DNA of 26,786 nucleotides, from IMG/VR virus record IMGVR_UViG_3300009182_000278, positions 1 to 26,786 of that record, one strand, 5' to 3'. The first letter of the stretch is position 1; each line of letters begins with the position of its first letter. The stretch comes from a virus. The notes under the pieces are model-generated. The model had not been told where the DNA came from and searched no databases. It saw nothing but the letters and a program-made list of their open reading frames with translations. Shown here piece by piece: positions 5,920 to 26,786 of the stretch. Position numbers and translations under genes: made by a program.

Positions 5920-6221
5920 TGTCAGCAACATATACAAAATATAGTCCTTATTATTCTACGGGTAGTTTTGGTCCATTTTTAGATGTAATGGAGAAACGTC
6001 CTATTCCCAAACTAAATAGTGATCCCATTTTAAAAATAGAAACAACCTATATGTATAGACCTGATTTGTTGGCCTTTGATCTTTATGGCAATGCTGCTTT
6101 ATGGTGGGTCTTTTCTAGTAGGAATCCTGATATTTTAATTGATCCTATTTTTGACTTTTATACTGGTCAAAGTATCTATGTTCCAAAAAAAGATACATTG
6201 ATGCGATCTTTAGGAATTTAA
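5919..6221 (+). CDS. gp53: Baseplate wedge protein gp53-like
   Basis: This 100-residue protein matches the conserved core of T4 gp53 family wedge proteins. The diagnostic run is YMYRPDLLAFDLYGNAALWW (residues 44-63), followed by VFSSRNPDILIDPIFDF and a C-terminal GQSIYVPKKDTL that resembles a LysM-like fold ending. In T4, gp53 joins neighbouring wedges around the hub. Here the protein is about half the T4 length (196), so it is close to the minimal core. The ATG overlaps the upstream stop by one base, and AAGGGA (5905-5910) provides a good Shine-Dalgarno. The next gene follows after three bases, which points to tight translational coupling. Confidence 0.87.
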   Translation: MSATYTKYSPYYSTGSFGPFLDVMEKRPIPKLNSDPILKIETTYMYRPDLLAFDLYGNAALWWVFSSRNPDILIDPIFDFYTGQSIYVPKKDTLMRSLGI

Positions 6222-9384: not shown

Positions 9385-11544
9385 ATGACTATAGATTCGG
9401 TAAGACTTAATAAAATTCCAGAATTTCTCGATAAGGATAAATCTACGGTTAGATTAGATCCAGGTCCCTATATCGGTAAAATAAAAAATAATCTAGACCC
9501 CACTAGGAGCGGAAGACTACAAGTCTATATACCCAACTTAGCATCCGGCGATGAATCCAATACATCAAATTGGAGGACTGTGTCCTATGCAAGTCCATTC
9601 TTTGGTAGTACTCATCAACCAGATTCTAATAAGCAGAACTCCTTTAGTAAAGTTCAACATACATACGGTATGTGGGCAGTAGTTCCTGACATAGATAATT
9701 TTGTATTATGTACATTTGCTGGTGGAGATCCCAATAGGGGATTTTGGTTTGCTTGCATACCTAATCAGATTGGTCATCACATGGTACCAGGACTTGCCGG
9801 AAGCGTTAATATTGATGATTCTAATATTGAGGATGAAAAAGTAAAATCAAATTTTGAGTCTGGTAATCCAACAATAGCTGCTGAATTCAACGAAAATCAA
9901 GAAGATTTAAATTGGGAAAATTTTGTCGGATTAAAAAAACCTATCCATGAAGAACAATTTAAAAACTTATTAAGACAGGGTCTAGAGTCTGATTACATCA
10001 GAGGAATTATATCTAGTAGTAGTCAAAGAGAAAGCCCAAGTCATGTATTTGGAATTTCAACTCCTGGTAGTAGTGTTAATAACAAAGGTGCAACCACAAG
10101 TCGAGTAGGCGATCTTAAGGCTGGCATAGTTACGTCAGATGACTATGCAGTTCCAACAAGAAAAGGTGGCCATTCCTTTGTTATGGATGATGGGGATTGG
10201 GCTGGTAGAGATCGTTTAGTTAGGATTAGAACATCTGCAGGCCATCAATTATTAATGAATGATACTGCTAGAATATTATATATAGGAAATAGTGACGGCA
10301 GTGTTTGGGTAGAGTTAACTGGGCCTGGACATTTAAACATTTATGCCGGTAATAGTGTAAATATTCGGGCACAAGGCGATTTAAATTTTCATGCAGATAA
10401 GAATATTAATTTTAATGCCGGAAAAGAAATTAATTTTAATTCAGGATCAGCAACAACAATTCAAGCCCAACAAATAAATCTAAATAGCACTCAAAATTTA
10501 ACGGTTTATGGGGAAACAATTGGTATTGGAAGTTCGGGATCGTTGATCATCAACTCCTCTGGCGCAGCAAGTATTAATGGATCATCAGGGTTAAAAATGA
10601 CTGGGGCCACTATTACTTTGAATCAAGGGGGAACACAGGCAGTTAATAGGCCCAATGCCTTAAAGACTAATATATTAGATGACACTAAAAAAGATGGCTC
10701 GGGCAAATGGAAAAGTGGGCAAATTAAATTAGAAACAATAGTTCCTATTGCACCTACACATGAACCATGGAATTTGCATCTAGGAACACAATATCCAAAT
10801 TCAATCACTTCAGGGTCTTCTTCTGAATCTATTAATTCTGGAGTTCCTGCTAGTAATGGGGTTACTAGTGGGCCTGCGCCAGGAGAGGATGACACGACTA
10901 ATAACAGTTCACCTTCTCCGGCTAATAATCAAGAATCTAATTTAGGTAAGGAATCCGCAAAGGGTGCAGGGGTTAAAAATCCAGCCCCCACCACTTCAAT
11001 GAATAGTGCTAACAATCCTACACCAAATACTGGGATAGGCCCGTTGAATGTTAGGGAAACAAAGGCATTACTAACTCAATTGGGGCATAGTGAAAGTGGT
11101 TCTAAGTATGGTGCTGTGAATAAATTTAATTATTTGGGAAAATATCAGATTGGTGCAGCAGTATTAGCGGATCAGGGATATATTAAACCGGGTGCTTTTG
11201 AAAAATACGGTAATAATGCAGTAAATTATCCCACGTCGTGGACTGGAAAGGATGGTATTTTATCAAAAGAATCTTATCTGACGTCTGATCAAACGCAGGA
11301 AAAAGTAATGCAAAAGTTATCGACTTCTAATTACAAGTCTTTAGTGAGTTCAGGGGCGTTAAAATCAAATGATGATTCAGCAACTGTTGCGGGTATGTTA
11401 TCGGTTAGTCATTTATTGGGTTCAAATGGCGCTAAGAATTGGGCTAAAACTGGTTCTGGTGCTGACGCAAATGGAACCACTGGCTCCACATATTTTAATA
11501 TGGGAAGATATGCAGTCGACGTCTTAGCGGATCCAAAAGGTTAA
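9385..11544 (+). CDS. gp5: Baseplate hub spike gp5-like with C-terminal peptidoglycan hydrolase
   Basis: This 719-residue protein forms the membrane-piercing spike. Residues about 27-135 are the OB-fold (GPYIGKIKNNLDPTRSGRLQ, then YGMWAVVPDIDNFVLCTFAG). The conserved RESPSHVFGISTPGS lies near 214-228. Residues about 255-420 lead into and form the VgrG/gp5C-type beta-helix (GHQLLMNDT, NIYAGNSVNIRAQGDLNFHA, repeated NINFNAG-like turns). A Ser/Asn/Pro/Thr linker spans about 470-553. Residues about 553-719 resemble a lysozyme/lytic transglycosylase, with HSESGSKYGAVN and LGKYQIGAA; E570 is the likely catalytic Glu. In T4 the lysozyme lies between OB-fold and beta-helix and is cut free, so the order here is different. 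No strong Shine-Dalgarno is visible before the ATG. Confidence 0.92.
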   Translation: MTIDSVRLNKIPEFLDKDKSTVRLDPGPYIGKIKNNLDPTRSGRLQVYIPNLASGDESNTSNWRTVSYASPFFGSTHQPDSNKQNSFSKVQHTYGMWAVVPDIDNFVLCTFAGGDPNRGFWFACIPNQIGHHMVPGLAGSVNIDDSNIEDEKVKSNFESGNPTIAAEFNENQEDLNWENFVGLKKPIHEEQFKNLLRQGLESDYIRGIISSSSQRESPSHVFGISTPGSSVNNKGATTSRVGDLKAGIVTSDDYAVPTRKGGHSFVMDDGDWAGRDRLVRIRTSAGHQLLMNDTARILYIGNSDGSVWVELTGPGHLNIYAGNSVNIRAQGDLNFHADKNINFNAGKEINFNSGSATTIQAQQINLNSTQNLTVYGETIGIGSSGSLIINSSGAASINGSSGLKMTGATITLNQGGTQAVNRPNALKTNILDDTKKDGSGKWKSGQIKLETIVPIAPTHEPWNLHLGTQYPNSITSGSSSESINSGVPASNGVTSGPAPGEDDTTNNSSPSPANNQESNLGKESAKGAGVKNPAPTTSMNSANNPTPNTGIGPLNVRETKALLTQLGHSESGSKYGAVNKFNYLGKYQIGAAVLADQGYIKPGAFEKYGNNAVNYPTSWTGKDGILSKESYLTSDQTQEKVMQKLSTSNYKSLVSSGALKSNDDSATVAGMLSVSHLLGSNGAKNWAKTGSGADANGTTGSTYFNMGRYAVDVLADPKG
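11041..11541 (+). other. Lysozyme-like domain of gp5 (residues 553-719)
   Basis: Domain call within the gp5-like gene. The segment GHSESGSKYGAVN puts a Glu (E570) ahead of LGKYQIGAAVLADQGY, the arrangement of soluble lytic transglycosylase and goose-type lysozyme active sites (Glu, then G-[KR]-Y-Q-x-G). It would open the cell wall during injection. It follows a long Ser/Asn/Pro/Thr-rich linker, which suggests a flexible attachment at the far side of the spike. Confidence 0.7.
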
Positions 11545-11562: not shown

Positions 11563-11919
11563 ATGACTACATATAAAGGATTCAGCACCTATAATAGATT
11601 TAAAAAATATAAGCTAACTGATTATGAGTTAGCTAAACAGGATTTGTTTAATCATTTTCAAATAAGAAAAGGTGAGAAATTGATGAATCCAAATTTTGGA
11701 AGTGTAATTTGGGAATTATTATTTGAACCATTCACTGAAGAAATTAAAGAAAAAATTGTCAATGACATTACTGATGTAGTCAAATATGATCCTAGAATGT
11801 CTGTGGACTCTGTAGTAGTAGCACAATTTGAGTATGGTATACAGGTTGAGCTATCCTTGACCTATATACCGACAAATCAGACCGAAACAATGCTTATGCA
11901 GTTTAATCAGAAAACATAA
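11563..11919 (+). CDS. gp25: Baseplate wedge protein gp25
   Basis: This 118-residue protein belongs to the gp25 family, a sheath-nucleating wedge component conserved in contractile tails and type VI secretion (TssE). The key segment is NFGSVIWELLFEPFTEEIK (residues 44-62), followed by a helix and YDPRMSVDS. D76-P77-R78 takes the place of the conserved EPR core motif, with Asp for Glu. The length is slightly below T4 gp25 (132). It starts 18 bases after gp5 stops, and a 90-base gap to gp6 follows. The role is to link the inner wedge to the first sheath ring together with gp6 and gp53. Confidence 0.92.
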   Translation: MTTYKGFSTYNRFKKYKLTDYELAKQDLFNHFQIRKGEKLMNPNFGSVIWELLFEPFTEEIKEKIVNDITDVVKYDPRMSVDSVVVAQFEYGIQVELSLTYIPTNQTETMLMQFNQKT

Positions 11920-12009: not shown

Positions 12010-15000
12010 ATGGCCATTAACAAACGACAAAATTCTCTGCTAGCAGCAGAAAACTGGAAAAAAATATATCAGACGTTTCAAGACGCCGATTTCACCAGTT
12101 ACGATTTTGAAACTTTAAGAAAGAGCATGATTGACTATCTTAGGATAAATTATCCTGAGGATTTCAATGATTTTACTGAAAGTAGTGAATATGTTGCTCT
12201 AATTGATCTGATTGCGTTCATGGGACAAAGTTTAGCATTTAGGACTGATCTAAATGCTAGAGAGAATTTCATTGATACTGCCGAGCGTAGAGACAGTATT
12301 TTAAAATTGGCCAGATTAGTTGGATATAATCCAAAAAGAAATATACCTGCTTCCGGATTTTTAAAAGTTGACTCGATAAGCACGACCGAGACCATCTATG
12401 ATAGCAATGGTTTTAATTTAAGTAATCTTTTAATATATTGGGATGATAAAAATAATGTCAATTGGTTAGAACAATTTGGATCAGTGATAAATGCAGCTCT
12501 AGTAAGTTCCCAAATTGTTGGAAAACCAGGGCATAGTCAAACAATAAATTCTATTAGAACAGATGAATACACATTAAATCTTGCGCCCAATACAACTAGC
12601 ATTTCTCAATTTCAAGCATTAGTAGAAAATGGTAATGTTAATTTTGAGGTTGTAAGTTCAACAAGCCTTGGGAAGTCTTATATTTACGAAGTTCCCCCAA
12701 AACCTAATTCATTATTTAATTTATTATATAAAAATGATAGTTATGGCAACAGTTCAAATAACACGGGTTTTTTTGTATATTTTAAACAGGGTGAATTGCA
12801 AAGCCAAGATTTTTCATTAAATGATTCTTTACCTAATAGAACAGTCCCCGTAAATTTTACCAATATAAATCAAATTGACGTTTGGCTTTATGGTCTCTCT
12901 AGCTCAGGTGGTATTCAAGATCTTTGGAAGGAAGTTCCATCGACATCTGGAGTAAATGTAATTTATACCAAAGAGACTGATAAAAATTTATATCAAATCA
13001 ATACCAAAAACAATGACCAGATTGATTTGATTTTTGGTGACGGTGTGTTTACTAATATTCCTAAAGGGCCATTTAGAGTTTATTTTAGAACTGGAAACGG
13101 ACTAACATATAAAATAACGCCCAATGAACTGCAAAATGTCATCATACCAATGACTTATGTCAGTAGGGCTGGCAGATTAGAAACACTTACTTTAAAAGCT
13201 AGTTTAAAATATACTGTAATCAATGCATCCTCAAGGGAGACCTTAGACGATATTAAGCAAAAAGCGCCACAACAATATTATTCACAGAATAGAATGATCA
13301 CTGGCGAAGATTACAATATTTTGCCATTTACGTCATTCAGTAACGTTGTTAAAGTAAAAAGTATTAATAGAACTAGTTCGGGGATCAGTAAATATTTAGA
13401 TATTCTAGACCCAACTGGAAAATACTCCAGCACAAATAGTTTTGGCAATGATGGTATTTTATATAAAAATGAAACAACCAATGTCTTCACTCTTAATTTT
13501 TCTAATTTTACAAATACAAGTAAAATAATTTATGATTCTGTGATTGATAATATTATTAATTCTAAAGAATTTAAACATTTTTATTATGAAAATTATCCTT
13601 CATATGATTTGAATAATCATATTTGGAATTTGCAAACGTCGGCAGCTCCGGCAGTCACTGGTTATTTTTCCTTAGCAACTGTTGAAAACTTTGATTTAGG
13701 TTTGCCTTATTTGCCACCAGGGATATCTGGATCATTTGACCCTATACCGTCGACTAATCCAAACTCTAATTTAAAACTAACTGTAAATAATCTAACTAAA
13801 AATTTAGGTATAAATCAAACAATAAGTCCGTTCATACCAATAGTTGCGACGGGCGGAACAAAACCCTACAGCTATTCTATTAGTCCAGATTTGCCAAAAG
13901 GGGTGTTAATGGGTGCCTCAACAGGACGTATCTCTGGGAACCCAAAAACTACTTTCCCAGTCACCCCATATGTCATTGCGGTAATTGATTCAACAGGGTC
14001 AATAGCAACAGCACCGTTTTTATTATCAGTGAATAGTAATTTCGTTGATGTCCCTGCCGATGCCAATACCGATTCTAGACTAGATTCTTGGGACATACGT
14101 CCGGAAGCAATTAATGCCTCTTCAAATTTCAATATTAATTATATTAAAAAAGGCGCAATAATAAAATTTAAACCAGCACCAGGCAATCATTTTGATGCAA
14201 ATAATAATATGATCCCGGGATCAACAAAGCTTGTTACTGATAAAATGGAAATCTTTGCGGGAGTATTAGATGTTTCAGGACCATACAATAAAGTGTCATC
14301 CTCAGGATTGGGCCCAATTTCTTTGAGTACACTGGTGCCAAATGGTGCAATTGTTGACAAAATTTATCCTGTATTTAAAAACAGCTTTTTTTCCACCTTT
14401 ATATCAAAAATGGTTGATTTGGTTGGTGAGTTTAAAAATTTTGGAGTTGCTTATAATAGCAGATATCAAAGTTGGAGAATTATAACCAATCAGAATCTGA
14501 ACATCGTTGATGATTTTAGTTTAAAGAATGAAGGTGACTATAGCAATACTGGCAAAGATTCAAGTTGGTTAATTAGATTTGAAGCAAGTGGATCAAATTA
14601 TAAAGTTTACTATAGAGTAGTTGAATATGTCTTCGAAAGTCTTTCCCAAGTTGCGTTTCTTAAAGATGAAAAATTAAAAATTTATGATCCTAAATCTGGA
14701 CAAACAATTAATGATCAAATAACAATTTTTAAAACAAACTCTGGACCAGACTCGTTTGCTGCATTGGGTGCAGATTATGTTTGGTCCGTTTATAAGAGTC
14801 CAGTAGCTGCTGACGGATATATGAGTAATTCTCGAGTATTGTTGACATATACAGATTCAAATTTTGATGGTATACCAGATAATCCAGAACTATTTGCTAA
14901 ATTGGTCAATCCTAAATTTAATCCAAATTCAAAAATGGTTTACTTTAAAACCGTAGAATCAAATGATAGATTCAATGATTACGAATCAATTAAAGAAGGA

Positions 15001-15789
15001 ACGATAGTTTCAGAATATAGATCGATGAATCAAATTCTGAATAATTTAAATTATTTTCTTCCTGGTCAGATTTTTTATACAGAATTAGATAAAAAATTCT
15101 ATCGATTAACTAATAATAACACTCTAGAAACCGTCAATGGTTACAAAGCGTCTTTTGGTAGGCAAAGTCTATATTTTCAATATAGACACAATAGTCCAGA
15201 AAGTAGAAGGATTGATCCAGGAACATCTAATGTTATTGATGTATATGTTTTGACATCCTCGTATGAAAAAGCATATAGAAATTGGATATCAGATACTAGT
15301 GGAACTATGATCAAACCAATAGAACCATCAAGTATTGATTTAGCGACACAATTTGCGTCATTGAATGATATTAGAAGTGTGTCTGACACTATGATTTTTC
15401 ATAGTGCAGTTTTTAAACCATTGTTTGGGTTTAAGTCTCCAGAAAATTTGCGGGCTGTGTTTAAAGTTGTCAAAAATCAGTCAATAGAAACTAGTGATAA
15501 TGATATCAAGACTTCTGTTGTGAATGCAATTAATAATTATTTTGATATAGCTAATTGGGATTTTGGTGAAACTTTTTATTTTAGTGAATTGGCTGCGTAT
15601 TTGCATCAAGTTTTGGTTCCTAATATATCATCTATTATCATTGTTCCAGCAAACTCAAGTTTGACTTTTGGTCACTTATATCAAATTAATTCAGAACCAA
15701 ATGAAATTTTTATAAATGCAGCGACTGTTGAAAATGTGGAAATTATTACTGCATTGACAGCATCCCAATTGAATGTGTTCATTAAATAA
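12010..15789 (+). CDS. gp6: Baseplate wedge protein gp6 with an inserted Ig-like domain
   Basis: The N-terminus is unmistakably gp6-like: DFTSYDFETLRKSMIDYLR, DFTESSEYVALIDLIAF, then GQSLAFRTDLNARENFIDTA and SILKLARLVGYNPKRN (residues about 27-118). gp6 dimers form the ring that holds the wedges together and pass the contraction signal to gp25. The central beta-rich part contains DQIDLIFGDGVF (near 337-348) and GEDYNILPFTSFSNVVKVKS (near 433-452), as in J-like wedge proteins. Total length is 1259 against 660 in T4. Part of the excess is an Ig-like domain at 588-677, with further extra segments at about 690-1130. The C-terminus (about 1150-1259) resembles the gp6 end with FSELAAYLHQVLVPN. The start has a weak leader and a late promoter element upstream. 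Confidence 0.93.
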   Translation: MAINKRQNSLLAAENWKKIYQTFQDADFTSYDFETLRKSMIDYLRINYPEDFNDFTESSEYVALIDLIAFMGQSLAFRTDLNARENFIDTAERRDSILKLARLVGYNPKRNIPASGFLKVDSISTTETIYDSNGFNLSNLLIYWDDKNNVNWLEQFGSVINAALVSSQIVGKPGHSQTINSIRTDEYTLNLAPNTTSISQFQALVENGNVNFEVVSSTSLGKSYIYEVPPKPNSLFNLLYKNDSYGNSSNNTGFFVYFKQGELQSQDFSLNDSLPNRTVPVNFTNINQIDVWLYGLSSSGGIQDLWKEVPSTSGVNVIYTKETDKNLYQINTKNNDQIDLIFGDGVFTNIPKGPFRVYFRTGNGLTYKITPNELQNVIIPMTYVSRAGRLETLTLKASLKYTVINASSRETLDDIKQKAPQQYYSQNRMITGEDYNILPFTSFSNVVKVKSINRTSSGISKYLDILDPTGKYSSTNSFGNDGILYKNETTNVFTLNFSNFTNTSKIIYDSVIDNIINSKEFKHFYYENYPSYDLNNHIWNLQTSAAPAVTGYFSLATVENFDLGLPYLPPGISGSFDPIPSTNPNSNLKLTVNNLTKNLGINQTISPFIPIVATGGTKPYSYSISPDLPKGVLMGASTGRISGNPKTTFPVTPYVIAVIDSTGSIATAPFLLSVNSNFVDVPADANTDSRLDSWDIRPEAINASSNFNINYIKKGAIIKFKPAPGNHFDANNNMIPGSTKLVTDKMEIFAGVLDVSGPYNKVSSSGLGPISLSTLVPNGAIVDKIYPVFKNSFFSTFISKMVDLVGEFKNFGVAYNSRYQSWRIITNQNLNIVDDFSLKNEGDYSNTGKDSSWLIRFEASGSNYKVYYRVVEYVFESLSQVAFLKDEKLKIYDPKSGQTINDQITIFKTNSGPDSFAALGADYVWSVYKSPVAADGYMSNSRVLLTYTDSNFDGIPDNPELFAKLVNPKFNPNSKMVYFKTVESNDRFNDYESIKEGTIVSEYRSMNQILNNLNYFLPGQIFYTELDKKFYRLTNNNTLETVNGYKASFGRQSLYFQYRHNSPESRRIDPGTSNVIDVYVLTSSYEKAYRNWISDTSGTMIKPIEPSSIDLATQFASLNDIRSVSDTMIFHSAVFKPLFGFKSPENLRAVFKVVKNQSIETSDNDIKTSVVNAINNYFDIANWDFGETFYFSELAAYLHQVLVPNISSIIIVPANSSLTFGHLYQINSEPNEIFINAATVENVEIITALTASQLNVFIK
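13771..14040 (+). other. Ig-like (He_PIG-type) domain within gp6 (residues 588-677)
   Basis: The segment shows the bacterial putative-Ig pattern: ATGGTKPYSYSISPDLPKGV, then STGRISGNPKTTFP, then YVIAVIDSTGSIATAPFLLS. Its signature is a G-x-x-PYSYSI strand, LP.G, a TG.ISG.P turn, and a closing DS.G..A strand. Such domains usually mediate surface or carbohydrate adhesion. It is bounded by Pro/Ser/Asn-rich linkers (before) and a VPADANTDSRLDSWD stretch (after), consistent with an insertion into the gp6 scaffold. Confidence 0.8.
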
Positions 15790-15804: not shown

Positions 15805-18800
15805 ATGGCTAATAGGAAAACTTTAGATTTTTTACCAAAAATATTTCAAACTGAAACTAACGAAAAGTTTTTAAACTCTGCATTAGATCAGTTAATAAGT
15901 GATGCTGATTTTAAGAAGATAAACGGGTATATTGGTAGAAAATTTGCCCCGTCATATAAGACTACTGATAGTTATATTTTAGAATCAAGTAAAGAGAGAA
16001 AAAACTATCAACTTGAGCCTAGTGTTGTTGTTTCAGATTCTGACAATATTGAATTTTGTAGCAGCTATTTGGACCTAATAAACAAATTGAAATATTATGG
16101 GGCTATTGTTAATGATCATGATCGACTATTTTCATCAGATTATTATTCGTTTAATGGCCTAATAGACTTTGATAAGTTTGTAAATTTCTCCCAATATTAT
16201 TGGATACCAAATGGTCCTGAACCAGTTTCAATAGGGGAATCTTTAGTTAAATCCCATGAAATATTTAACATAACTAGAAATTCTTTAGATTCTAGTTATA
16301 AGTTCAATGATAGGCAAACTAACAATCCCGAATTGACACTAATGCGAGGGGGTGTCTATAAATTTAAATCCTCCCAGCCAGGTAATAAGTTTTGGATCCA
16401 GACTGAACCTGGCATTTCTGGAGTAAAAAATGCAACACCAACAATCAGTTCACGCAACGTTTTAGGCGTAACAAATAACGGTGAAGATGATGGTGTGACT
16501 GAATTCTTTGTGCCACTAGTTTCCTCACAAGACTACTATTTAAAAATGCCTTTGATCGACACTATTGATTTTGCTATTTCAAATGTAACATTAAATGATC
16601 TTGATGGCGCAGATGTTTCTATATTGGAAACCATTGGTGGGCTTGACGGCATAAAATTAAACCCTGATGGAAAAACCTTTATTTTTCTAACACCAACTAA
16701 AACTGAATTTGACTGGTATTCTAGAAATAGAAATAGTCCAATAGAACCACAATTTAGAACTGGTATTTGGCAAATATCTGTTGATGCAAATCAAACTATC
16801 TCGCTTTTATATATTGCAGACTTTGATATGAATTCTAGGGTTTATGTCAGAAGCGGTGTTACAAATGCTCATAATGAGTTTTTTAAAGATAGTTCGGGGA
16901 AAATTTCCTTAGTACCATCATTGACTGCGCAGCTTGATGTTTTATATTATCAAGACTCAATAGACCCAAATATCTATGGTATAATTAGATTGGTAGATTC
17001 TGATGTTGAGGAAGTAAATGTTGAACAGGACATCATTGGGAAAAAATATTGGACTAGTGGTAATGGAATAGTATTAACCAACGGACTAAAAATTAAATTT
17101 GGTGAATATGTTGTCCCCTCAACTTATGCTAGTAACACTTATATTGTAGATGGTGTTGGGGATAGTATAGTTTTAGTTGATTATTCCAAAATAGTTTGTC
17201 CTGAGCCAAATATTGTTGAATCAATGTCGGGGTTTGATAAATCAAAATATGATGAAAATAAATTAGATGAATCATATTACGGTTCGACAGAACCAGACTA
17301 TATTGTTTCTAATAGAGCAAGCCTAGATTTAAATGCTTGGGCTAGACAAAATTGTTGGTATCATATTTCGGTTCTCGAAGCAGTATCGAAATATACCGGA
17401 AACCCAGTAACTGTGGATCAATCGGTTAGAGCGAAAAGGCCCATCATTGAAATCAATCCAAATATTCAAATGTTTAATAGTGGATCTGTTGGTATAAAAC
17501 CTGTCGATCAAATTGATACTATACATACTAATGCATTTAGTCAGATTCAGCACAGTAAAACTTTGGAAATTTCGGGACTGTCTTTAAAAGTCGGGCAAAG
17601 AGTTTTATTTGCTAACGACAATGATCCAAAAGTAAAAACTCAAGTTTATACAGTTGAGTATGGGATGCAACAGGAGTCAACAGAAGTATCATATTATGAC
17701 ATCATTGGTACTGGTACTATACAAAATAATCCTGTATACCTTGACTTTTCTTCCAAGGAAAGTCCGAGACCATTGGGCAATTATGATTTATATGATTTAG
17801 ATTTAAATTTAGATTATGAATATACTTGGAATGTGGTTGGTAAGGAAGACCTATTAAAGGCAACTGTTGTTGAGGGTCTTGAATTAGCAACGGGTTCTCC
17901 TGATGCAGACGTGACGTCAGTGACTTATCTCGGTGGTAAAATTTATAAAATTCAATTTAAAGCCAAAGTCCCAATAATAAGTTTTACTAAACAAAATGTT
18001 AAAATTAGAATTCCAGGCGGATCATTAAAGATTGCAGGAACAGATACTAAGTTTCTCAGCGAATTGACAATTGGGTCCGGCATCTATGACAACAATGACC
18101 ATTATATTGGATCAGTTACTTCAATCCATTCAGACTCAATAGCTTTCTTAGATGCACATTCTGACAAATTATTATTGAATAGTAAATTCAAAGTTAAAAA
18201 CCCAAAAGTTAGATTAGTTGTGTCTCCAGATCCGCTAGATGTTGCTGAATCAGGTAGTATGGTTGTTGCTACGACTGGGACAAATAGAGGGAATAGTTTC
18301 TGGTTCGACGGGCAAGTATGGAACATGGCTCAGTTAAAGACTTCAAAAAATCAAGCACCATTATTCGATGTATTTGATTCAAATGGTGTTAGCTTTTCCT
18401 CAAAAGATGTTTATCCAAATAGTAATTTTTCTGGAACAAAAATATTTTCTTATAAAATTGGAAATGGCGCTGTTGATTCAATCCTAGGGTTCCCTTTATA
18501 TTATACAAATACCAATTACACTACAGCAGAAATAACATTTGATAATAATTTTGATTCAGATATTTTTAGTTATTCTGTTAGCAATAAAATTTATAAAAAG
18601 AATATATCATCAGGTAATTTGAAGAAAAATATTAATTCTAATAGTTATGCAATGGTTAGCCCCTGGAGCTTGGTTTCTGAAAAGTCAAAACAATATCAGA
18701 TTATAAGTACTGGTTATGATGGCGAATCTAATAATCTTATTATTGACATAACACCCGAAGCTTCAACAAAAGCATCAAATGTCAAAGTATTTTTAAATAA

Positions 18801-21800
18801 TATGCTATTAAGCATGTCTGATTTTAAACTAAAAACAGTTGATTCTATAACGTCGTTGGAAGTTAAAAAGTCTCTTTTAACAGTTGGTGATAAGATTGAT
18901 ATCTTAATTTACAGTAAATCGACTAGCGATCTCGGATATTATCAGGTACCTTTAAATTTAGAATATAATAGTAAAAATACTCCTGTATTGCAACTAAATT
19001 TAGGACAAATTAGAAACCATCTTTTAAAAATTGTGGAAAATGCTAATGAAGGTCTCGAAGCCACTAATGTCAGAGACATGATTGTAAATGGAATAGGCGG
19101 AAACATTCTTCAACAAACAGCTCCAATAATTTATCCAACTTTATTTTTGGTATCTAAGCAAATAAACTTCATTGATTCGTTAGAATATGCTAAACAGGAA
19201 TATACAAAATTCAAAAACAATTTTTTAGAATTAATCACCACCTTAATTGAAAAAAATCAAAAAAACATTACGGTTGATGAGATATTGACGATTATTAATC
19301 AAAACAAAAATGAGTCATTTCCCTGGTATTACAGTGATATGGTTCCATATGGGACTCATAAATTATTTTCTTATAAAATAACCAACTCATCTAAAAAACA
19401 ATATCCAATTGATTCAATATTTGATATTAATAAATTGCAGTCTAGGGCCATCCTTGTGTACTTTAACGATAGACTTCTGACTTATAACAAAGATTATAGT
19501 TTTAGTAAAGTATTACCAACAATTATCATTAAAGATACTGTTGTGTTAACTGTCAATGGTCTATTAGAAATCAAAGAATATGATACGGATAGAAATTTCA
19601 TTCCCGAAACACCAACCAAGTTGGGACTTTATTCTAAATTTGTTCCAGAAATTTTTACAGACTATACTTACCAAATACCAACTGAAGTTATACAAGGACA
19701 TGATGGAAGTATAACTCCAGTTTTTGGAGACTTGAGGGATCAACTGTTATTAGAGTTGGAGCTCAGAATATTTAATAATATTAAGTCAAATGACAAGGCC
19801 AAGACTTTTGATATAAATGAATTTATTCCAGGACAATTTAGAAATGTCGATTATACTTTGGATGAATTTAATAATATATTGTCTAATGGATTTTTAAAAT
19901 GGGTTGGCAATAACAAACTTGAATACTCTACCAATAATTATGCCATTAATGGGGAGTTGTTTTCCTATAATTATAAAACTAGCAAGAACAAACTGACTGA
20001 TCAAAATTTATTAGGTTGGTGGAGGGGAATATATAAATTTTTATATGATACCGATCGTCCACATATTTGTCCTTGGGAAATGCTAGGCATTAGTGAAAAG
20101 CCAGACTGGTGGGATGATACTTATGGGGCTAAACCATACACATCTAATAATAAATTTCTTTGGGATGATTTAGAAAATGGTATTATTAGACAAGGTAACG
20201 ATATTACTATAAATCCAGCATATATTAGGCCAGGTTTATCTAAAATAATACCAGTTGATGATCAAGGAATATTATTACCACCACTTTCAGTCATTGTTTC
20301 TAAATTTAATTCTAATAGAATTACCAGTAGTTATTCTTTTGGCGACTGCGCACCTATAGAAGCAGCTTGGCGTAAGTCAAGTGAATATCCATTTGAACTT
20401 CAAAGAACACTAGCATTAATGAAGCCAGCGTTTTATTTTGGTACACTATTGAATAACAATGTGTACTATATGGATAAAGTGACTAATGAGTATGTAAATG
20501 AACAAAATAATTTACGAATCAGGCCAGATTCTATTAGAATAAATGGAGACACTGACGGCACTGATATTGTTAGAAGTTCTGGGTATTTGAATTTTATACA
20601 TGCACACCTTACTAATTTGGGTGTTGATGCTTCAAATTCTATTAAAAATCTATTACTTGGTGTTGACGTTCAATTAACATATAAAATGTCTGGTTTTTCG
20701 GATAAGAAATACCTAACTATTTTGGCAGAGCAATCCAGTCCATCTAGTACCAATGAGTCTGTGGTACTGCCAGAAGAAAACTATAGTTTATATTTAAATA
20801 ATGGGGTACCAGTCGACACAGCCACTTATAGTGCAGTAATTGTGCAAAAAACAGAGTCTGGATATTCTATTAGTGGATATAACACATCAAGCCCATATTT
20901 TATCATAGTACCAAGTGATCCATCAGCTGGAAATAGTAATACCATTAGTGTTGGTGATTCAAAGGCAATTATTTTTAATGGGTATAAAAAAGAAAAAATA
21001 TTTGTGCCCTATGGTCAAGAATTTGTTAATAAACAACAAGTAGTTGATTTTTTAATTAGTTATCAAAGATATCTAATGTCGTTAGGGTTTATTTTTGAAG
21101 ATTACAATAACGATTTGAAAGAACAACAAAATTGGGTATTGAGTGTAAAAGAGTTTTTATTCTGGGCGCAGAGATTCCTAAGTCCAAAAAGCATACTGGT
21201 ATTAAGTCCTGTTGGATCAAAAATAACCTTTTTATTGACCAATAGCGTTGTTGACGATCTATCCAACAGCAGTTCTGTGTTGGATTTGAATTTCGATCCT
21301 GTCAAAATTGAAACATTATTTGTGTCTAGATTGCCTGGTAAATTTTCAATAGAATCTACGACAGGCGAAACCTTTGGGTTTGTTCAATTAAATCTAATTC
21401 AATTTGAACATGTGTTGATTTTTGATAATACTACAATTTTTAATGATGTGATATATAAACCAGAATTGGGTAATAGGCAATTTAGACTAAGATTGATTGG
21501 TAGTAAAACTAGTGAGTGGGACGGATCCATATATCCACCAGGATTTATTTTTAATAGCGCAAAACTCAATGATTGGCGTGCTGGCAAGGATTATCTGAAA
21601 GGCGATTTGGTCACATTTAAAAATAAATATTATGTAGCAATGCAGCAGGTGTATGCTCAGGATTCCTTCAATATAACTTATTGGAAACAGATTCCCAAAG
21701 CATCTATCAAAACTGGATTATTGCCAAACCTTTCACAAAATGCCTCCAAGTTCAATGAAGTTTATAATATTGATTCTGAGTCCTCTGACAAGCAGTTACG

Positions 21801-24800
21801 CCAACTTGGTGCAAGTTTGATTGGTTATAGATTTAGAAATTATCTAACAGATTTAAATATAGGATTAGATAGTCAGACTAAATTTTATCAAGGATATATT
21901 AAGGACAAGGGAACTAAAAAATCTATCTTTTCTTTATTGTCTGCTAATGTCAACTCTAATAGAGATGTGAGTATTGGTCTTAATGAGGAATGGGCTATAT
22001 TGGTTGGAGAATATGGGGCACAAAATAGCAATGGCCAAATCGAAGTCATAATTGGTAGTTCTTTAATAAATAAAAATGTTTTTGGGTTGATAATTGACCA
22101 GGACCGTTCACTGCCAGAGTTTATTTCAGTCTCGTCTAATAAAACATATTCAGACTCTGTTATTCCTTGGCAAGGATTTTTGGAAAGAACTGATAAAAAA
22201 CGTTATGAAAATGATTTGATCATGGCCGGGTATGTCAATTTAGATGACATTGATCTAACCCTATTTGACATTTCAAAACAGACATTGGATAGAAATATAT
22301 TAAACTCTACTGTTGCTGGGATGCATTTGTGGCTAGCTAAAGATATATTTTATAATTGGCAAGTTTATAGACTTGATGAGTCTAATAATCAAATCAAGTC
22401 TATAGAATATGCATTAGATATGAGGGCGATAGTGACTACAGGTCTAAGAAATGATCTTCAGGCCTATGATACTATTATTATTAAACAGTTTGATTCTGAA
22501 TTAAATGGGATTTATTTAGTTTTAGAAAAAATTGATTCAAATAGATTCTTAATTGAAATAAATCAACAACAAGTAACCTTGTTAAAACAAGGCCCAGTAA
22601 AAGCTGTTGGTTCACTTCTGATATTAAGATCTGTCAGATATCAGAATCTAGAGTCGGTCATTTCAGCATCGTCGTCTTTAAATTGGCCCACTAGGACCAA
22701 AATTTGGTTAGACAGTGATGAGAATAATCAATGGGCATATTATGAAAAGAAACCCACATGGAAGTTTGAAAATAAAGTTAGTTTAGAAATTTCTAATGAT
22801 TCAAAAAGTGTTGGGTACGGGTCCTCAATAGCTGGTAGTCCAAATCAGAAATTTATGGCATCCGGTGCACCTAATAAAAACAATGGTGGTGGTAGAATTC
22901 ATGTCATAACGTCTGTTGATGAAGCTCAAACAATCAATATTATTGATAGTAAAAATGAAAATATTAAAAGCTTGGGATTTAGTTTAGATTTAACTGACAC
23001 TTGCCTAGTGTCTGGAGCTCCTAGATTCAATAATAATATTGGGTCTGTATTAGTTTGTCTATGGGATAAAGAATTAAATCAACATGCTATTACACAGCTT
23101 ATCTATCCACCTCTTGAAGAAACTGCTAGTCTTTTTGGATATAGTGTTAAAGTTTCAACTGATTCAAATATATTATATGTGGGTTCTCCAGGAAACAATG
23201 CGGTTTATAAATATAATCTCAAAATTCCTGATCGATCAGTTACCCAATATATCCCATTAGACTCAAAATTAAAAACTTACAAATTAAATTTTGATAAAAT
23301 TGATTTTAAAAATCTTTCCGTGGATATTGATGGTGAGTTTTTAATATTTGGTATGGATTATTTCATAACTGCTGGTGGAGTTTTTTCACTTAGTGAACAA
23401 CAATTGATAAAATATCAGACCAAAGAAATTAGGCCTAACGAAGCACATACCATTAGAGTAAGGGTATTGCCATATTATGAATATTCTGGGATTAAATTGT
23501 CTGGGGGCAGTCTGGACTCAAAATTTGGACAAGCAATTGATATTAGCAATGATGGCAAAACGGTACTAGTTGGTGCACCTTCAGATTATTTACGAGCATC
23601 TAAACCTACAGGGGCAGCATATGTATTCAAAGAAGATGAATTAACTCAAAAGCTTTTACCAGAACAAATTAATATTAGAGCAAATTTTGGATTTAGTGTC
23701 GCATGTTCATCTGATGGTAACAAGATTTGTGTGTCGGCCCCCAATTACAATAACGACCAAGGCTCTGGCGGCGCAGTTTTTTATTATATTGCCACAAATA
23801 ATCTTTATGGGCTTGGCCAAATTATATCTGGACCAAAATATAAATCTAGTCAAGAATTTGGATATAAAATAAAGCTATTGGAAGATGGTAATTCCTTATT
23901 AGCATCTAGTATACTCGGATCTATTAATATCTACGAAACTGTTGATCAAGAAAACACAATATTTGACAGTAATACTACTAGATTCTGTCAAACTGAAATT
24001 GGAACCGGATCTGTTTATCTATATGAGTCATTAATTCTAGATCCGTCAAAGCAAAATGGAACAATGGTTTTCACAAAAGAATTTAATGAAAAAGACACAA
24101 GACCTGGTGATAGGTTTGGCAGTGATGTGGAAATTACTAAAAATTGTATTTTCATTGGGTCTGACGAAAACAAATCAACAAAAGGTCAAATTGGTCAAAT
24201 TTACAAGTATTCAAACACTTCGGGGTCTAAGACTTGGACAAAAGTGAGAACTAAAGATACTATGGTAGATATTGAATCTATAAATCAAGTCTCATTATTT
24301 GATAGAGACAATAATGTTACATTATCACAGTTTGATTATATTGACCCAGCAAAAGGAAAAATATTAGGTATTGTTGAGCAAGATTTAGATTATAAAACAA
24401 CAATAGATCCGGCAATTTATAGTACAGAAACAGCATCTTCGATGGATGGTGGAAACGACGGAAATCCTGGTTGGACAGTGTCCCAAGTTGGCAAAACTTG
24501 GTGGGACTTATCTAAGGTGAGATACATAAATTATGAGCAGTCAGAATTAACATATAGGCTGAAAACATGGGGACAAACGTTTCCTGGCAGTGAAATACAT
24601 GTTTATGAATGGTTTGAAAGTATGACTCCACCAAGTCAACATGTATCATCAGGTAAACCGGGAATTCCATATATGGAAGACGATAGCGCATATTCTATAG
24701 TCTCTTATGTGAGCCCGCAATCTAAAATAGTTACTGTAAAATATTACTATTGGGTCAGATTGCTTAATGAAATTCCAAAAAGTTCTAACAGATCTATCAG

Positions 24801-26786
24801 TGTTACTGAAATGGAAATAGCTATATCTAATCCCAATATGCAAAATATTCCTTATGTTGCATTTTTGTCTAAGAACAGCGTCGGGATATTCAATAGTCAA
24901 AATTATTTTCGAGGAGCAACTTTGTCATTGATAGTTAATTATGATAAAGTGTTAAATTCGAATTTAGCTCATAAGGAATATGTATTAGTTAAAGATGGTG
25001 ATCACGCCACAACATTACCAGATTCAATTATTAATAAAATGATAGATAGTTTATCAGGATTTGATCCTGCTGGTAATGTTGTGCCAGATATTCGATTAAT
25101 GCCTGATTCAAAGTTGGGCCTAATGGTTAGACCTAGACAGACAATAGTTTTAGATAGACTATCGGCATTGCGGAATGTCATTGAATTCATTAATTTAATG
25201 TTGTCGACAGATGGAATAGTTTTGGCAATTCAGAATAATCCCGAGTTTAAAAATTCTAGACTAAATCAAATTGACCAATTACCAGACAATTATACTCATA
25301 AAATTAATTCTAGACTAGAACTTGATTTTATTGCTATAAAAAAAGATGATACAGTTCTAATTTTGGATGATGAGGAATATGGTAATATATGGACATTAAA
25401 TCAATTTACTGATAACGGTTATAGGATCATAAAAAATCAAACATTCGACACTAGAAAATTCTGGAGAATGCGATCTTGGTATGCTAGTGGCTTCTCATCA
25501 TCAACATATATTGACTATGTTGTTGATCACTATAATACAATTAGTCAATTAACAATATTGAAAGGAAATGTTGTTAAAGTGCTATCCCCGACAGGATTTG
25601 AAATTTATTATTTTGAATCTAGCAGTACAAGTAGATTGGTTGGTTTGGAAAAGGGAACTATTGAGTTTTTGGATTCTATCTGGAGCACACAAAATTCAGG
25701 ATTTGATAATAATAGTTCAGACCTAAGTGGGTTTGATGGAAGTAATTCAATTGAGATTAGACAAATTTTAAATGCACTAAGATACGAAATCTTAACGGGA
25801 AGTTTAGAAGGCGTGTTTAATCAAATGATCTTTGTCTTGATTAATTATGTATTGTCAGAGCAAGATAGTATTGATTGGGCATTTAAAACTAGCTTTATTA
25901 GTGTTATTCATAATATTAGAAGATTGGAACAAAGTCCTATCTTTATTAAAGACAATCAAAATTATTATATTGATTATATAAACGAAGTAAAGCCCTATAG
26001 GACGAAAATTAGAGAATATATATTATCCTATTCCAACTTAGATTTGGGTGAAGTTCATGCAACTGATTTCGACTTGCCATCAATGTGGGACAATACACTA
26101 AATGTATATAGATCTCCGTCTGGTGAATATCCAATCAAGGACGGCGAATTATTATTACACTCTCAATATCAAGATTGGCGTAAAAATTTTCAATATAGCA
26201 TTGAGTATATTAAAATTGTGAAACCAGGAAAAAATTTCACAATGAATCCAACAATTAGGCTGATATCTGTTGATGGGTTTGGATCAGGAGCAACAGCAAA
26301 AGCATTTATTAATCAAGCAACAGGTTCTTTATTGTCAATAATGCTTACTGATCCAGGTCAGGGATATATCCAGCCACCTAAAATTATTATTAATGGCGAT
26401 GGTAATGGTGCAGAATTGTTGGCAGTAATGTCTAATAAAAAAATTAGATCAATGAACGTTACTTTGAAGTTTGATAGGATAAGCTATCAAACAAATGTTA
26501 CTGAATGGCTACCAAATAAAAAATATGAAATGGGAAATCGAGTTAGTTATCGTGGCAACGGGTATGTGGCAACTGCCGACATTCCGGCTTATGATTTATT
26601 CAACTATTCACTATTTTCCTTGATTCCTGATTCAGACTATATTAGTGCTAATGATAGAATAGCTTCAATTTATCGTCCTGACAGGAATCAAGCACCAAAG
26701 GATATAAATGAAGATGGAACTATTAACTTGTCCAGACTCATTCCTGGTGTCATTCGAACTGGTAACGCAGACGACGGGTCATTACT
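15805..26786 (+). CDS. Giant virion structural protein, baseplate-associated (runs off window)
   Basis: One frame is open without interruption from the ATG at 15805 to the window edge, giving more than 3660 residues; I read every codon line and found no stop. Segments I associate with very large structural proteins of T4-like marine phages include ELTLMRGGVYKF and PGNKFWIQTEPGISG (residues 177-212), NRASLDLNAWARQNCWYH (about 504-521), GNSFWFDGQVWNMAQLK (829-845), VIQGHDGSITPVFGDLRD (1295-1312), GWWRGIYKFLYDTDRPHICP (1406-1425), GKTWWDLSKVRY (about 2897-2908) and NEVKPYRTKIREY (3393-3405). It contains recurring beta modules, two carbohydrate-binding-like motifs and a seven-repeat FG-GAP propeller. 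It follows gp6, the position of gene 7 in T4, so a wedge or baseplate-periphery role is inferred. No Shine-Dalgarno is seen; only AGATAATATATT precedes the ATG. Confidence 0.9.
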   Translation, partial: MANRKTLDFLPKIFQTETNEKFLNSALDQLISDADFKKINGYIGRKFAPSYKTTDSYILESSKERKNYQLEPSVVVSDSDNIEFCSSYLDLINKLKYYGAIVNDHDRLFSSDYYSFNGLIDFDKFVNFSQYYWIPNGPEPVSIGESLVKSHEIFNITRNSLDSSYKFNDRQTNNPELTLMRGGVYKFKSSQPGNKFWIQTEPGISGVKNATPTISSRNVLGVTNNGEDDGVTEFFVPLVSSQDYYLKMPLIDTIDFAISNVTLNDLDGADVSILETIGGLDGIKLNPDGKTFIFLTPTKTEFDWYSRNRNSPIEPQFRTGIWQISVDANQTISLLYIADFDMNSRVYVRSGVTNAHNEFFKDSSGKISLVPSLTAQLDVLYYQDSIDPNIYGIIRLVDSDVEEVNVEQDIIGKKYWTSGNGIVLTNGLKIKFGEYVVPSTYASNTYIVDGVGDSIVLVDYSKIVCPEPNIVESMSGFDKSKYDENKLDESYYGSTEPDYIVSNRASLDLNAWARQNCWYHISVLEAVSKYTGNPVTVDQSVRAKRPIIEINPNIQMFNSGSVGIKPVDQIDTIHTNAFSQIQHSKTLEISGLSLKVGQRVLFANDNDPKVKTQVYTVEYGMQQESTEVSYYDIIGTGTIQNNPVYLDFSSKESPRPLGNYDLYDLDLNLDYEYTWNVVGKEDLLKATVVEGLELATGSPDADVTSVTYLGGKIYKIQFKAKVPIISFTKQNVKIRIPGGSLKIAGTDTKFLSELTIGSGIYDNNDHYIGSVTSIHSDSIAFLDAHSDKLLLNSKFKVKNPKVRLVVSPDPLDVAESGSMVVATTGTNRGNSFWFDGQVWNMAQLKTSKNQAPLFDVFDSNGVSFSSKDVYPNSNFSGTKIFSYKIGNGAVDSILGFPLYYTNTNYTTAEITFDNNFDSDIFSYSVSNKIYKKNISSGNLKKNINSNSYAMVSPWSLVSEKSKQYQIISTGYDGESNNLIIDITPEASTKASNVKVFLNNMLLSMSDFKLKTVDSITSLEVKKSLLTVGDKIDILIYSKSTSDLGYYQVPLNLEYNSKNTPVLQLNLGQIRNHLLKIVENANEGLEATNVRDMIVNGIGGNILQQTAPIIYPTLFLVSKQINFIDSLEYAKQEYTKFKNNFLELITTLIEKNQKNITVDEILTIINQNKNESFPWYYSDMVPYGTHKLFSYKITNSSKKQYPIDSIFDINKLQSRAILVYFNDRLLTYNKDYSFSKVLPTIIIKDTVVLTVNGLLEIKEYDTDRNFIPETPTKLGLYSKFVPEIFTDYTYQIPTEVIQGHDGSITPVFGDLRDQLLLELELRIFNNIKSNDKAKTFDINEFIPGQFRNVDYTLDEFNNILSNGFLKWVGNNKLEYSTNNYAINGELFSYNYKTSKNKLTDQNLLGWWRGIYKFLYDTDRPHICPWEMLGISEKPDWWDDTYGAKPYTSNNKFLWDDLENGIIRQGNDITINPAYIRPGLSKIIPVDDQGILLPPLSVIVSKFNSNRITSSYSFGDCAPIEAAWRKSSEYPFELQRTLALMKPAFYFGTLLNNNVYYMDKVTNEYVNEQNNLRIRPDSIRINGDTDGTDIVRSSGYLNFIHAHLTNLGVDASNSIKNLLLGVDVQLTYKMSGFSDKKYLTILAEQSSPSSTNESVVLPEENYSLYLNNGVPVDTATYSAVIVQKTESGYSISGYNTSSPYFIIVPSDPSAGNSNTISVGDSKAIIFNGYKKEKIFVPYGQEFVNKQQVVDFLISYQRYLMSLGFIFEDYNNDLKEQQNWVLSVKEFLFWAQRFLSPKSILVLSPVGSKITFLLTNSVVDDLSNSSSVLDLNFDPVKIETLFVSRLPGKFSIESTTGETFGFVQLNLIQFEHVLIFDNTTIFNDVIYKPELGNRQFRLRLIGSKTSEWDGSIYPPGFIFNSAKLNDWRAGKDYLKGDLVTFKNKYYVAMQQVYAQDSFNITYWKQIPKASIKTGLLPNLSQNASKFNEVYNIDSESSDKQLRQLGASLIGYRFRNYLTDLNIGLDSQTKFYQGYIKDKGTKKSIFSLLSANVNSNRDVSIGLNEEWAILVGEYGAQNSNGQIEVIIGSSLINKNVFGLIIDQDRSLPEFISVSSNKTYSDSVIPWQGFLERTDKKRYENDLIMAGYVNLDDIDLTLFDISKQTLDRNILNSTVAGMHLWLAKDIFYNWQVYRLDESNNQIKSIEYALDMRAIVTTGLRNDLQAYDTIIIKQFDSELNGIYLVLEKIDSNRFLIEINQQQVTLLKQGPVKAVGSLLILRSVRYQNLESVISASSSLNWPTRTKIWLDSDENNQWAYYEKKPTWKFENKVSLEISNDSKSVGYGSSIAGSPNQKFMASGAPNKNNGGGRIHVITSVDEAQTINIIDSKNENIKSLGFSLDLTDTCLVSGAPRFNNNIGSVLVCLWDKELNQHAITQLIYPPLEETASLFGYSVKVSTDSNILYVGSPGNNAVYKYNLKIPDRSVTQYIPLDSKLKTYKLNFDKIDFKNLSVDIDGEFLIFGMDYFITAGGVFSLSEQQLIKYQTKEIRPNEAHTIRVRVLPYYEYSGIKLSGGSLDSKFGQAIDISNDGKTVLVGAPSDYLRASKPTGAAYVFKEDELTQKLLPEQINIRANFGFSVACSSDGNKICVSAPNYNNDQGSGGAVFYYIATNNLYGLGQIISGPKYKSSQEFGYKIKLLEDGNSLLASSILGSINIYETVDQENTIFDSNTTRFCQTEIGTGSVYLYESLILDPSKQNGTMVFTKEFNEKDTRPGDRFGSDVEITKNCIFIGSDENKSTKGQIGQIYKYSNTSGSKTWTKVRTKDTMVDIESINQVSLFDRDNNVTLSQFDYIDPAKGKILGIVEQDLDYKTTIDPAIYSTETASSMDGGNDGNPGWTVSQVGKTWWDLSKVRYINYEQSELTYRLKTWGQTFPGSEIHVYEWFESMTPPSQHVSSGKPGIPYMEDDSAYSIVSYVSPQSKIVTVKYYYWVRLLNEIPKSSNRSISVTEMEIAISNPNMQNIPYVAFLSKNSVGIFNSQNYFRGATLSLIVNYDKVLNSNLAHKEYVLVKDGDHATTLPDSIINKMIDSLSGFDPAGNVVPDIRLMPDSKLGLMVRPRQTIVLDRLSALRNVIEFINLMLSTDGIVLAIQNNPEFKNSRLNQIDQLPDNYTHKINSRLELDFIAIKKDDTVLILDDEEYGNIWTLNQFTDNGYRIIKNQTFDTRKFWRMRSWYASGFSSSTYIDYVVDHYNTISQLTILKGNVVKVLSPTGFEIYYFESSSTSRLVGLEKGTIEFLDSIWSTQNSGFDNNSSDLSGFDGSNSIEIRQILNALRYEILTGSLEGVFNQMIFVLINYVLSEQDSIDWAFKTSFISVIHNIRRLEQSPIFIKDNQNYYIDYINEVKPYRTKIREYILSYSNLDLGEVHATDFDLPSMWDNTLNVYRSPSGEYPIKDGELLLHSQYQDWRKNFQYSIEYIKIVKPGKNFTMNPTIRLISVDGFGSGATAKAFINQATGSLLSIMLTDPGQGYIQPPKIIINGDGNGAELLAVMSNKKIRSMNVTLKFDRISYQTNVTEWLPNKKYEMGNRVSYRGNGYVATADIPAYDLFNYSLFSLIPDSDYISANDRIASIYRPDRNQAPKDINEDGTINLSRLIPGVIRTGNADDGSL
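18778..18927 (+). other. Beta module copy 1 in the giant protein
   Basis: Residues about 992-1041 read NVKVFLNNMLLSMSDFKL, then LTVGDKIDILIYSK. The pattern is a strand with a x-V-x-LNx turn, a second strand ending in a D-[YF] pair, then a strand followed by GD-x-I-x-I. Related segments occur at residues about 1213-1264 and 2501-2557, suggesting a duplicated small beta-sandwich. Confidence 0.45.
19438..19596 (+). other. Beta module copy 2 in the giant protein
   Basis: Residues about 1212-1264 read AILVYFNDRLLTYNKDYSFS, then IIIKDTVVLTVNGLLEIKEY. It shares the strand, N-[DG]-turn, strand with KDY, and closing alternating hydrophobic strand seen at residues 992-1041. Confidence 0.45.
21568..21690 (+). 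other. Carbohydrate-binding-like motif 1 in the giant protein
   Basis: Residues about 1922-1962 contain DWRAGKDYLKGDLVTFKNKY, then YVAMQQ and, after a gap, YWKQI. The pattern W-x3-x-Y-x-x-GD-x-V-x-F/Y-x-x-x-x-Y-x-A ... W resembles the short CBM5/12 (chitin-binding type 3) fold, where the aromatic residues contact sugar. W1924 is the first of these. Confidence 0.5.
22801..24213 (+). other. FG-GAP (integrin-alpha-like) beta-propeller in the giant protein
   Basis: Residues about 2333-2803 hold seven repeats of the FG ... (V/I)xGAP type. Repeat starts are at about 22813 (GYGSSIAG, then SGAP), 22975 (GFSLDL, SGAP), 23134 (FGYSVKV, VGSP), 23524 (FGQAIDISNDGKTVLVGAP), 23686 (FGFSVACSSDGNKICVSAP), 23857 (FGYKIKLLEDGNS, degenerate) and 24115 (FGSDVEI, IGSD). 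Most end in a GxVYxY-like strand such as GAAYVF or GAVFYY. Typical spacing is 52-57 residues. Seven repeats would make one closed seven-blade propeller. Repeat 3 to 4 is widened by about 75 residues (a beta module), and repeat 6 to 7 by about 30. Confidence 0.8.
23296..23475 (+). other. Beta module copy 3, inserted between propeller repeats 3 and 4
   Basis: Residues about 2498-2557 read FKNLSVDIDGEFLIFGMDYF and continue to HTIRVRVLPYYEY. This matches the strand, DG-turn, MDY strand and closing hydrophobic strand of the two copies near residues 1000 and 1220, and accounts for most of the extra length between FG-GAP repeats 3 and 4. Confidence 0.45.
26500..26580 (+). other. Carbohydrate-binding-like motif 2 in the giant protein
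   Basis: Residues about 3566-3592 contain EWLPNKKYEMGNRVSYRGNG followed by YVATADI, the same W ... Y-x-x-G(D/N)-x-V-x-Y ... Y-x-A pattern as near residue 1924. W3568 is the first aromatic. It is preceded by a Gly-rich segment (residues about 3492-3540) with GFGSGATAKAF and DPGQGYIQPPKIIING, a pattern often repeated in phage tail and fibre proteins. Confidence 0.45.

Follow-up and report, generated by a model that had tools for sequence, protein, structure and literature searches.

A predicted integrin-alpha-type seven-bladed FG-GAP propeller is a plug-in domain of a giant jumbo-phage baseplate protein

Propellers are already known from phage receptor-binding and baseplate proteins, as are integrin-like proteins from jumbo phages. 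In phiKZ, a seven-bladed propeller lies at the baseplate periphery as part of gp131C (PDB 4GBF), a suspected receptor binder; the baseplate propeller of the phi11 receptor-binding protein Gp45 is thought to hold the receptor sugar, and P2 of PRD1 also counts among the phage receptor-binding or baseplate proteins with a propeller (PMC4901313). An integrin-like "hemagglutinin," gp213, was reported earlier from the Sinorhizobium jumbo phage AP-J-162 (PMC11242549), and Atu_ph07 has an integrin-like protein too (BFVD A0A2L0UZX4). Our literature search found no paper combining FG-GAP with phage and baseplate. Here, we describe a 26,786-nucleotide stretch of viral DNA (the window) in which a segment of a giant baseplate protein is, by profile and predicted fold, an intact integrin-alpha-type seven-bladed FG-GAP propeller, present as a plug-in domain.

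The closest described systems each share part of this arrangement. The phiKZ protein likewise places a seven-bladed propeller in a jumbo-phage baseplate, but as the C-terminal domain of another protein, and 4GBF was absent among the best 50 PDB fold matches listed for our propeller. Gp45 of phi11 differs in being a five-bladed, trimeric, separate protein of a phage with a Gram-positive host. AP-J-162 gp213 and its Atu_ph07 counterpart are integrin-like proteins of related jumbo phages, but they are separate proteins of ~375–395 aa outside the giant baseplate protein. What is new is that the propeller is built into the giant baseplate protein itself, together with its exact boundaries, single gain, vertical inheritance, and family-specific motif.

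The window carries a baseplate gene cluster:
5919..6221, + strand: small baseplate wedge subunit (phrog_7145), likely gp53-like by size and position
9385..11544, + strand: gp5-like baseplate hub and tail lysozyme
11563..11919, + strand: gp25-like baseplate wedge subunit
12010..15789, + strand: gp6-like baseplate wedge subunit
15805..26784, + strand: giant virion structural protein (phrog_10938), directly after the gp6 gene, 3' end open in the window

The reading frame from 15805 is still open at the window end after 3660 aa and is complete in the sister contig L008 (3973 aa), which bears out the claim of a structural protein of more than 3660 residues. It matches the phrog_10938 profile with 1025 bits (E reported as 0). 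Other members of this family, from isolated phages (CBB_236, RaK2 ORF070w, PA5oct/MIJ3) share its place after gp6 but are without the propeller (checked in MIJ3 and RaK2). In Pectobacterium phage CBB, the homologous protein CBB_236, whose gene follows that of the gp6 homologue CBB_237, was found in purified virions by mass spectrometry with 21 unique peptides (PMC5259590). The gene order is 25-6-7 as in T4, with the giant protein in the gp7 position, and this order suggests that the protein may have a gp7-like role and that the propeller would be held by the wedge, as originally proposed. An hhalign comparison with single T4 sequences gave no match to gp7. The core of the giant protein has no significant PDB fold match and no solved baseplate protein as a relative by sequence or fold; its only solved relatives are small motifs of the chitin-binding CBM5/12 type, and none was found for the part of the core that follows the propeller. 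Elsewhere in the neighborhood, the gp6-like protein includes a putative Ig-like He_PIG domain mid-protein (residues 596–674, E 4e-6), and the products of the genes after the giant protein in L008 (18974–21501) are fibre-like and contain GYTGS/V repeats resembling collagen.

The original prediction placed the propeller at 22801–24213. Comparison with relatives that have an empty site kept this end and moved the start to about 22738. The features in and around the module are as follows:
21574..21648, + strand: chitin-binding type 3 (CBM5/12-like) motif ahead of the propeller (Pfam, below cut-off)
22738..24213, + strand: seven-bladed FG-GAP beta-propeller module, residues ~2312–2803 (empty-site comparison, profile, and predicted fold)
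22816..22821, + strand: FG motif of blade 1 (residue 2338, YG)
22972..22977, + strand: FG motif of blade 2 (residue 2390, LG)
23134..23139, + strand: FG motif of blade 3 (residue 2444)
23236..23475, + strand: nested domain of ~80 aa between blade-3 strands, residues ~2478–2557 (weak Sgo0707_N2 match)
23524..23529, + strand: FG motif of blade 4 (residue 2574)
23686..23691, + strand: FG motif of blade 5 (residue 2628)
23857..23862, + strand: FG motif of blade 6 (residue 2685)
23944..23979, + strand: family signature D...TTFD...T (D2714, F2720, D2721, and T2725, nearly invariant in the clade), located in the extended blade-6 loop
24115..24120, + strand: FG motif of blade 7 (residue 2771)
24229..24636, + strand: anchor A1 (DPxKG...WWD...PGSxIxVYEW), a conserved core segment immediately downstream of the propeller

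All seven of the proposed FG-GAP repeats were located. The regular 52–57 residue spacing claimed for them holds for four of the six gaps between successive motifs (52, 54, 130, 54, 57, and 86 residues), while the gaps of 130 and 86 arise because blade 3 houses a nested domain of ~80 aa and blade 6 an extended loop (~30 residues). With two such gaps, a series of seven evenly spaced repeats was rejected. The Pfam family FG-GAP_2 (PF14312) matches the segment with E-values between 1e-14 and 1e-16, according to the stretch submitted, and with scores of 54.9–61.1 bits against a curated cut-off of 23. Individually, three of the seven window repeats pass Pfam, and blades 1, 2, and 6 are weak. A separate profile was built only from the FG-GAP repeats of another protein, from phage Phosso: it scores the segment at 70.3 bits, compared with a maximum of 7.6 bits among 1,000 shuffles, and detects five window repeats, four of them clearly. 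The homologues named as a further check also agree, as the giant proteins of related phages carry the same domain: 23 of 27 clade members match FG-GAP_2 at E ≤ 0.01, and seven is the commonest repeat count (25 of the 52 inserts with any repeat match). In these relatives, all FG-GAP repeats were confined to the insert. The propeller has the above-cut-off score and the tandem repeats, forming a predicted beta-propeller, of other FG-GAP_2 members; it differs in being embedded within a phage structural protein and in its family-specific blade-6 motif.

AlphaFold2, run on a 27-sequence alignment, predicts a propeller with a mean pLDDT of 83 and a pTM of 0.85. The best PDB match to this fold is an integrin alpha head (9ind_A, E 1.4e-12, TM-score 0.54/0.63, the latter by target length), and among viral proteins it is matched best by FG-GAP proteins from phages and from giant viruses of eukaryotes. 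Against all PDB sequences, the phage-propeller family profile retrieved integrin alpha chains only, with integrin alpha-4 as the best (7e-18). FG-GAP entries in the PDB are mostly integrins, so we take these matches to reflect a shared repeat family and not descent from animals. The structure prediction proposed as a check thus returned a propeller with integrin alpha heads as best matches. The predicted fold, along with a dN/dS of about 0.05–0.22, also upholds the view of a complete seven-blade propeller that is folded and not decayed. While the integrin alpha head has the same seven FG-GAP blades, the phage propeller shares only ~13% identity with integrin alpha chains, lacks their thigh/calf domains, membrane anchor, and beta-subunit context, and is followed directly by conserved phage core. 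As for the calcium binding often found in such propellers, there was no strict integrin-type DxDxDG loop in the window or in any of the 50 clade propellers scanned, and a calcium-binding propeller is rejected as regards this motif.

To define the insertion site, we compared the named relatives RaK2, PBECO4, XaC1, Vibrio 2.275, MIJ3/PA5oct, Atu_ph07, Phosso, and SCTP-2; a search for further relatives with the downstream anchor gave 312 candidates, from which 80 contigs were kept, while a search with the window propeller alone found nothing. In the named relatives, the core is conserved on both sides, and the stretch between anchors ranges from 240 to 1556 aa. It is 737 residues in the window and about 240, without a propeller, in RaK2-type phages, where the flanking core segments are nearly adjacent. 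RaK2, PBECO4, XaC1, and others have empty sites, and at the propeller site the giant proteins of MIJ3, RaK2, and Atu_ph07 gave no FG-GAP match. The arrangement of the window was present in none of the named phages searched. A second clade (L041, L043, L045, L097, and relatives) has inter-anchor inserts of 851–863 residues in which, apart from a weak hint of CBM5/12, no domain was recognised. The giant baseplate protein is also encoded by L112 (CASEYV010000001.1), a contig of 283 kb that was filed under an uncultured bacterial bin and is probably jumbo-phage sequence.

The propeller was gained once and then descended mostly vertically. When a tree was built from just the flanking core, L004 and the 46 sequences with a propeller formed one branch with 100% support, and on this tree the propeller requires one gain and one loss (46 of the 47 clade members bear it). 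Propeller and core trees have 14 of 24 splits in common with no strongly supported conflict, and their distances correlate (r 0.87). The frequent module exchange that is usual, although not required, for phage receptor-binding proteins was not seen for the propeller; its tree agrees with that of the core, and the idea of a swapped host-range cassette is not supported. In L004, the lone clade member without a propeller, the propeller site is reduced to ~85 residues, and the same inter-anchor region holds a GDSL/SGNH hydrolase bearing the catalytic motifs GDS and DGIH:
L004 12020–14263: GDSL/SGNH hydrolase domain inside the giant baseplate protein
We rejected this hydrolase as a replacement at the exact propeller site, as it sits ~200 residues upstream.

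Within the conserved protein, the propeller is a rapidly diverging part. It had the lowest identity, relative to the flanks, in 108 of 113 close-pair comparisons, in which the flanks had been chosen as conserved anchors; in a fairer test, a whole-protein scan, it fell in the lowest 2–22% of windows in seven of eight pairs. Its variability was unremarkable in the very close pair L067/L065. By tree length, it evolves 1.6–1.9 times faster than the flanks and core. The propeller is nevertheless under purifying selection, with dN/dS at 0.05–0.22 in nine of the ten close pairs compared (the remaining pair has no amino-acid changes), higher than in the upstream core in eight of the nine informative pairs and well below 1. 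Over most of its loop surface, conservation is low. Apart from glycines and prolines of the FG-GAP repeats, conservation is highest at the four residues of the blade-6 signature, which is near-invariant even though propellers outside L008 are only 21–30% identical to that of the window.

Further domains are nested in or lie near the propeller. The blade-3 domain occurs only in the window, L008, L078, and L048; it was not a clear copy of another giant-protein domain, with a single hint at residues 1207–1244 (E ~0.01). Other clade members have larger insertions between other blades, and the propellers of L005 (12197–16810), L086 (6128–9997), and L037 (6404–9997) contain extra insertions of several hundred residues, i.e., nesting inside a nested domain. 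Pfam on residues 1399–3660 returned only FG-GAP_2, CBM5/12, and Sgo0707_N2-like matches. The CBM5/12-like assignment is backed by PDB profile and fold matches to chitin-binding domains, and a second such Pfam stretch is probably the similar sequence that we read by eye near the window end (about 26580–26700).

FG-GAP and propeller-like proteins also occur elsewhere in phages. Besides its baseplate protein, Sinorhizobium phage Phosso has two more giant frames (~3700 and ~3180 aa), in which FG-GAP repeats number in the dozens, and further FG-GAP matches near 92–94 kb:
L011 7929–16585 (PV764938.1 57900–68978): Phosso FG-GAP frame
PV764938.1 ~48386–56545: Phosso FG-GAP frame
Among cyanophages, proteins resembling the propeller are present in Synechococcus phage S-SCSM2R (L110 3246–7355) and in S-TIM5 (L109 5650–6873); one is annotated as TolB, in a tail-fibre gene cluster, and the other as a virion structural protein.

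What might the propeller do? The best-supported reading, for which our belief and our doubt are about equal, is that of an exposed, covalently attached baseplate module for host contact (receptor-binding-like), which would bind the host surface. The repeats, predicted fold, site, single gain, purifying selection, and presence of a homologous giant protein in virions form its observed basis. Because the two ends of a closed propeller lie together, the domain could hang from a core loop and leave the core undisturbed. We infer that several copies of it would be exposed on the outer side of the baseplate, with the loop-bearing face binding a glycan or protein of the host surface; it would then serve as an adhesin that acts at short range in support of the tail fibres, and might pass contact on to the baseplate. 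We regard the original suggestion of a receptor-binding or trigger domain as plausible, with the trigger role possible. Host contact is favoured by the propeller diverging faster than its surroundings, by CBM5/12-like motifs in the same chain, and by the GDSL hydrolase in the propeller-less L004; phi11 Gp45 offers a precedent for a propeller in a phage receptor-binding protein. Counting against it, the propeller tree is congruent with the core, unlike that of many swapped receptor-binding cassettes; the blade-6 signature points to at least one conserved partner; the L067/L065 pair is not unusually variable; and the hydrolase lies ~200 residues away from the propeller site. We consider it unlikely that the domain goes further and acts as a contact sensor, in which a captured integrin-type head binds the host and signals straight to the baseplate through the covalent wedge-like protein, with no separate fibre-to-baseplate trigger protein.

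The same conserved partner could lie inside the virion. Propellers are common protein-docking scaffolds, and this one may hold a baseplate subunit, a tail fibre, or a neighbouring giant protein, with no host contact; single gain and inheritance with the core, strong purifying selection, and the near-invariant D...TTFD...T across otherwise divergent propellers all fit such a docking platform. However, the same core works without a propeller in RaK2-type phages and L004, conservation is low over most of the loop surface, and the propeller evolves faster than the core. We hold this chief rival as tentative, a serious possibility that we would still bet against. That the site tolerates inserts of varied length (240–1556 aa between anchors) and that propellers themselves host nested domains would suit a decorating domain that merely widens the baseplate, adding size or stability without a specific ligand; the low dN/dS, retention in 46 of 47 clade members, and a conserved non-structural motif make this improbable. 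The weakness of blades 1, 2, and 6 and the small number of repeats passing Pfam alone might hint at a chance or low-complexity pattern, or at a decayed propeller, but this is refuted by the shuffle control, the predicted fold with its PDB matches, seven as the commonest repeat count in relatives, and purifying selection, leaving it a negligible chance.

Jumbo-phage baseplates contain very large proteins without solved relatives. Here, one such protein has a defined site between core segments where phages plug in whole functional domains: an integrin-type propeller, acquired a single time by a widespread clade, or, in the one member that lost it, a hydrolase. As a discrete, foldable domain with exact boundaries, the propeller can be expressed, assayed, and deleted, and it opens the question of host contact by giant baseplates besides that made by tail fibres.
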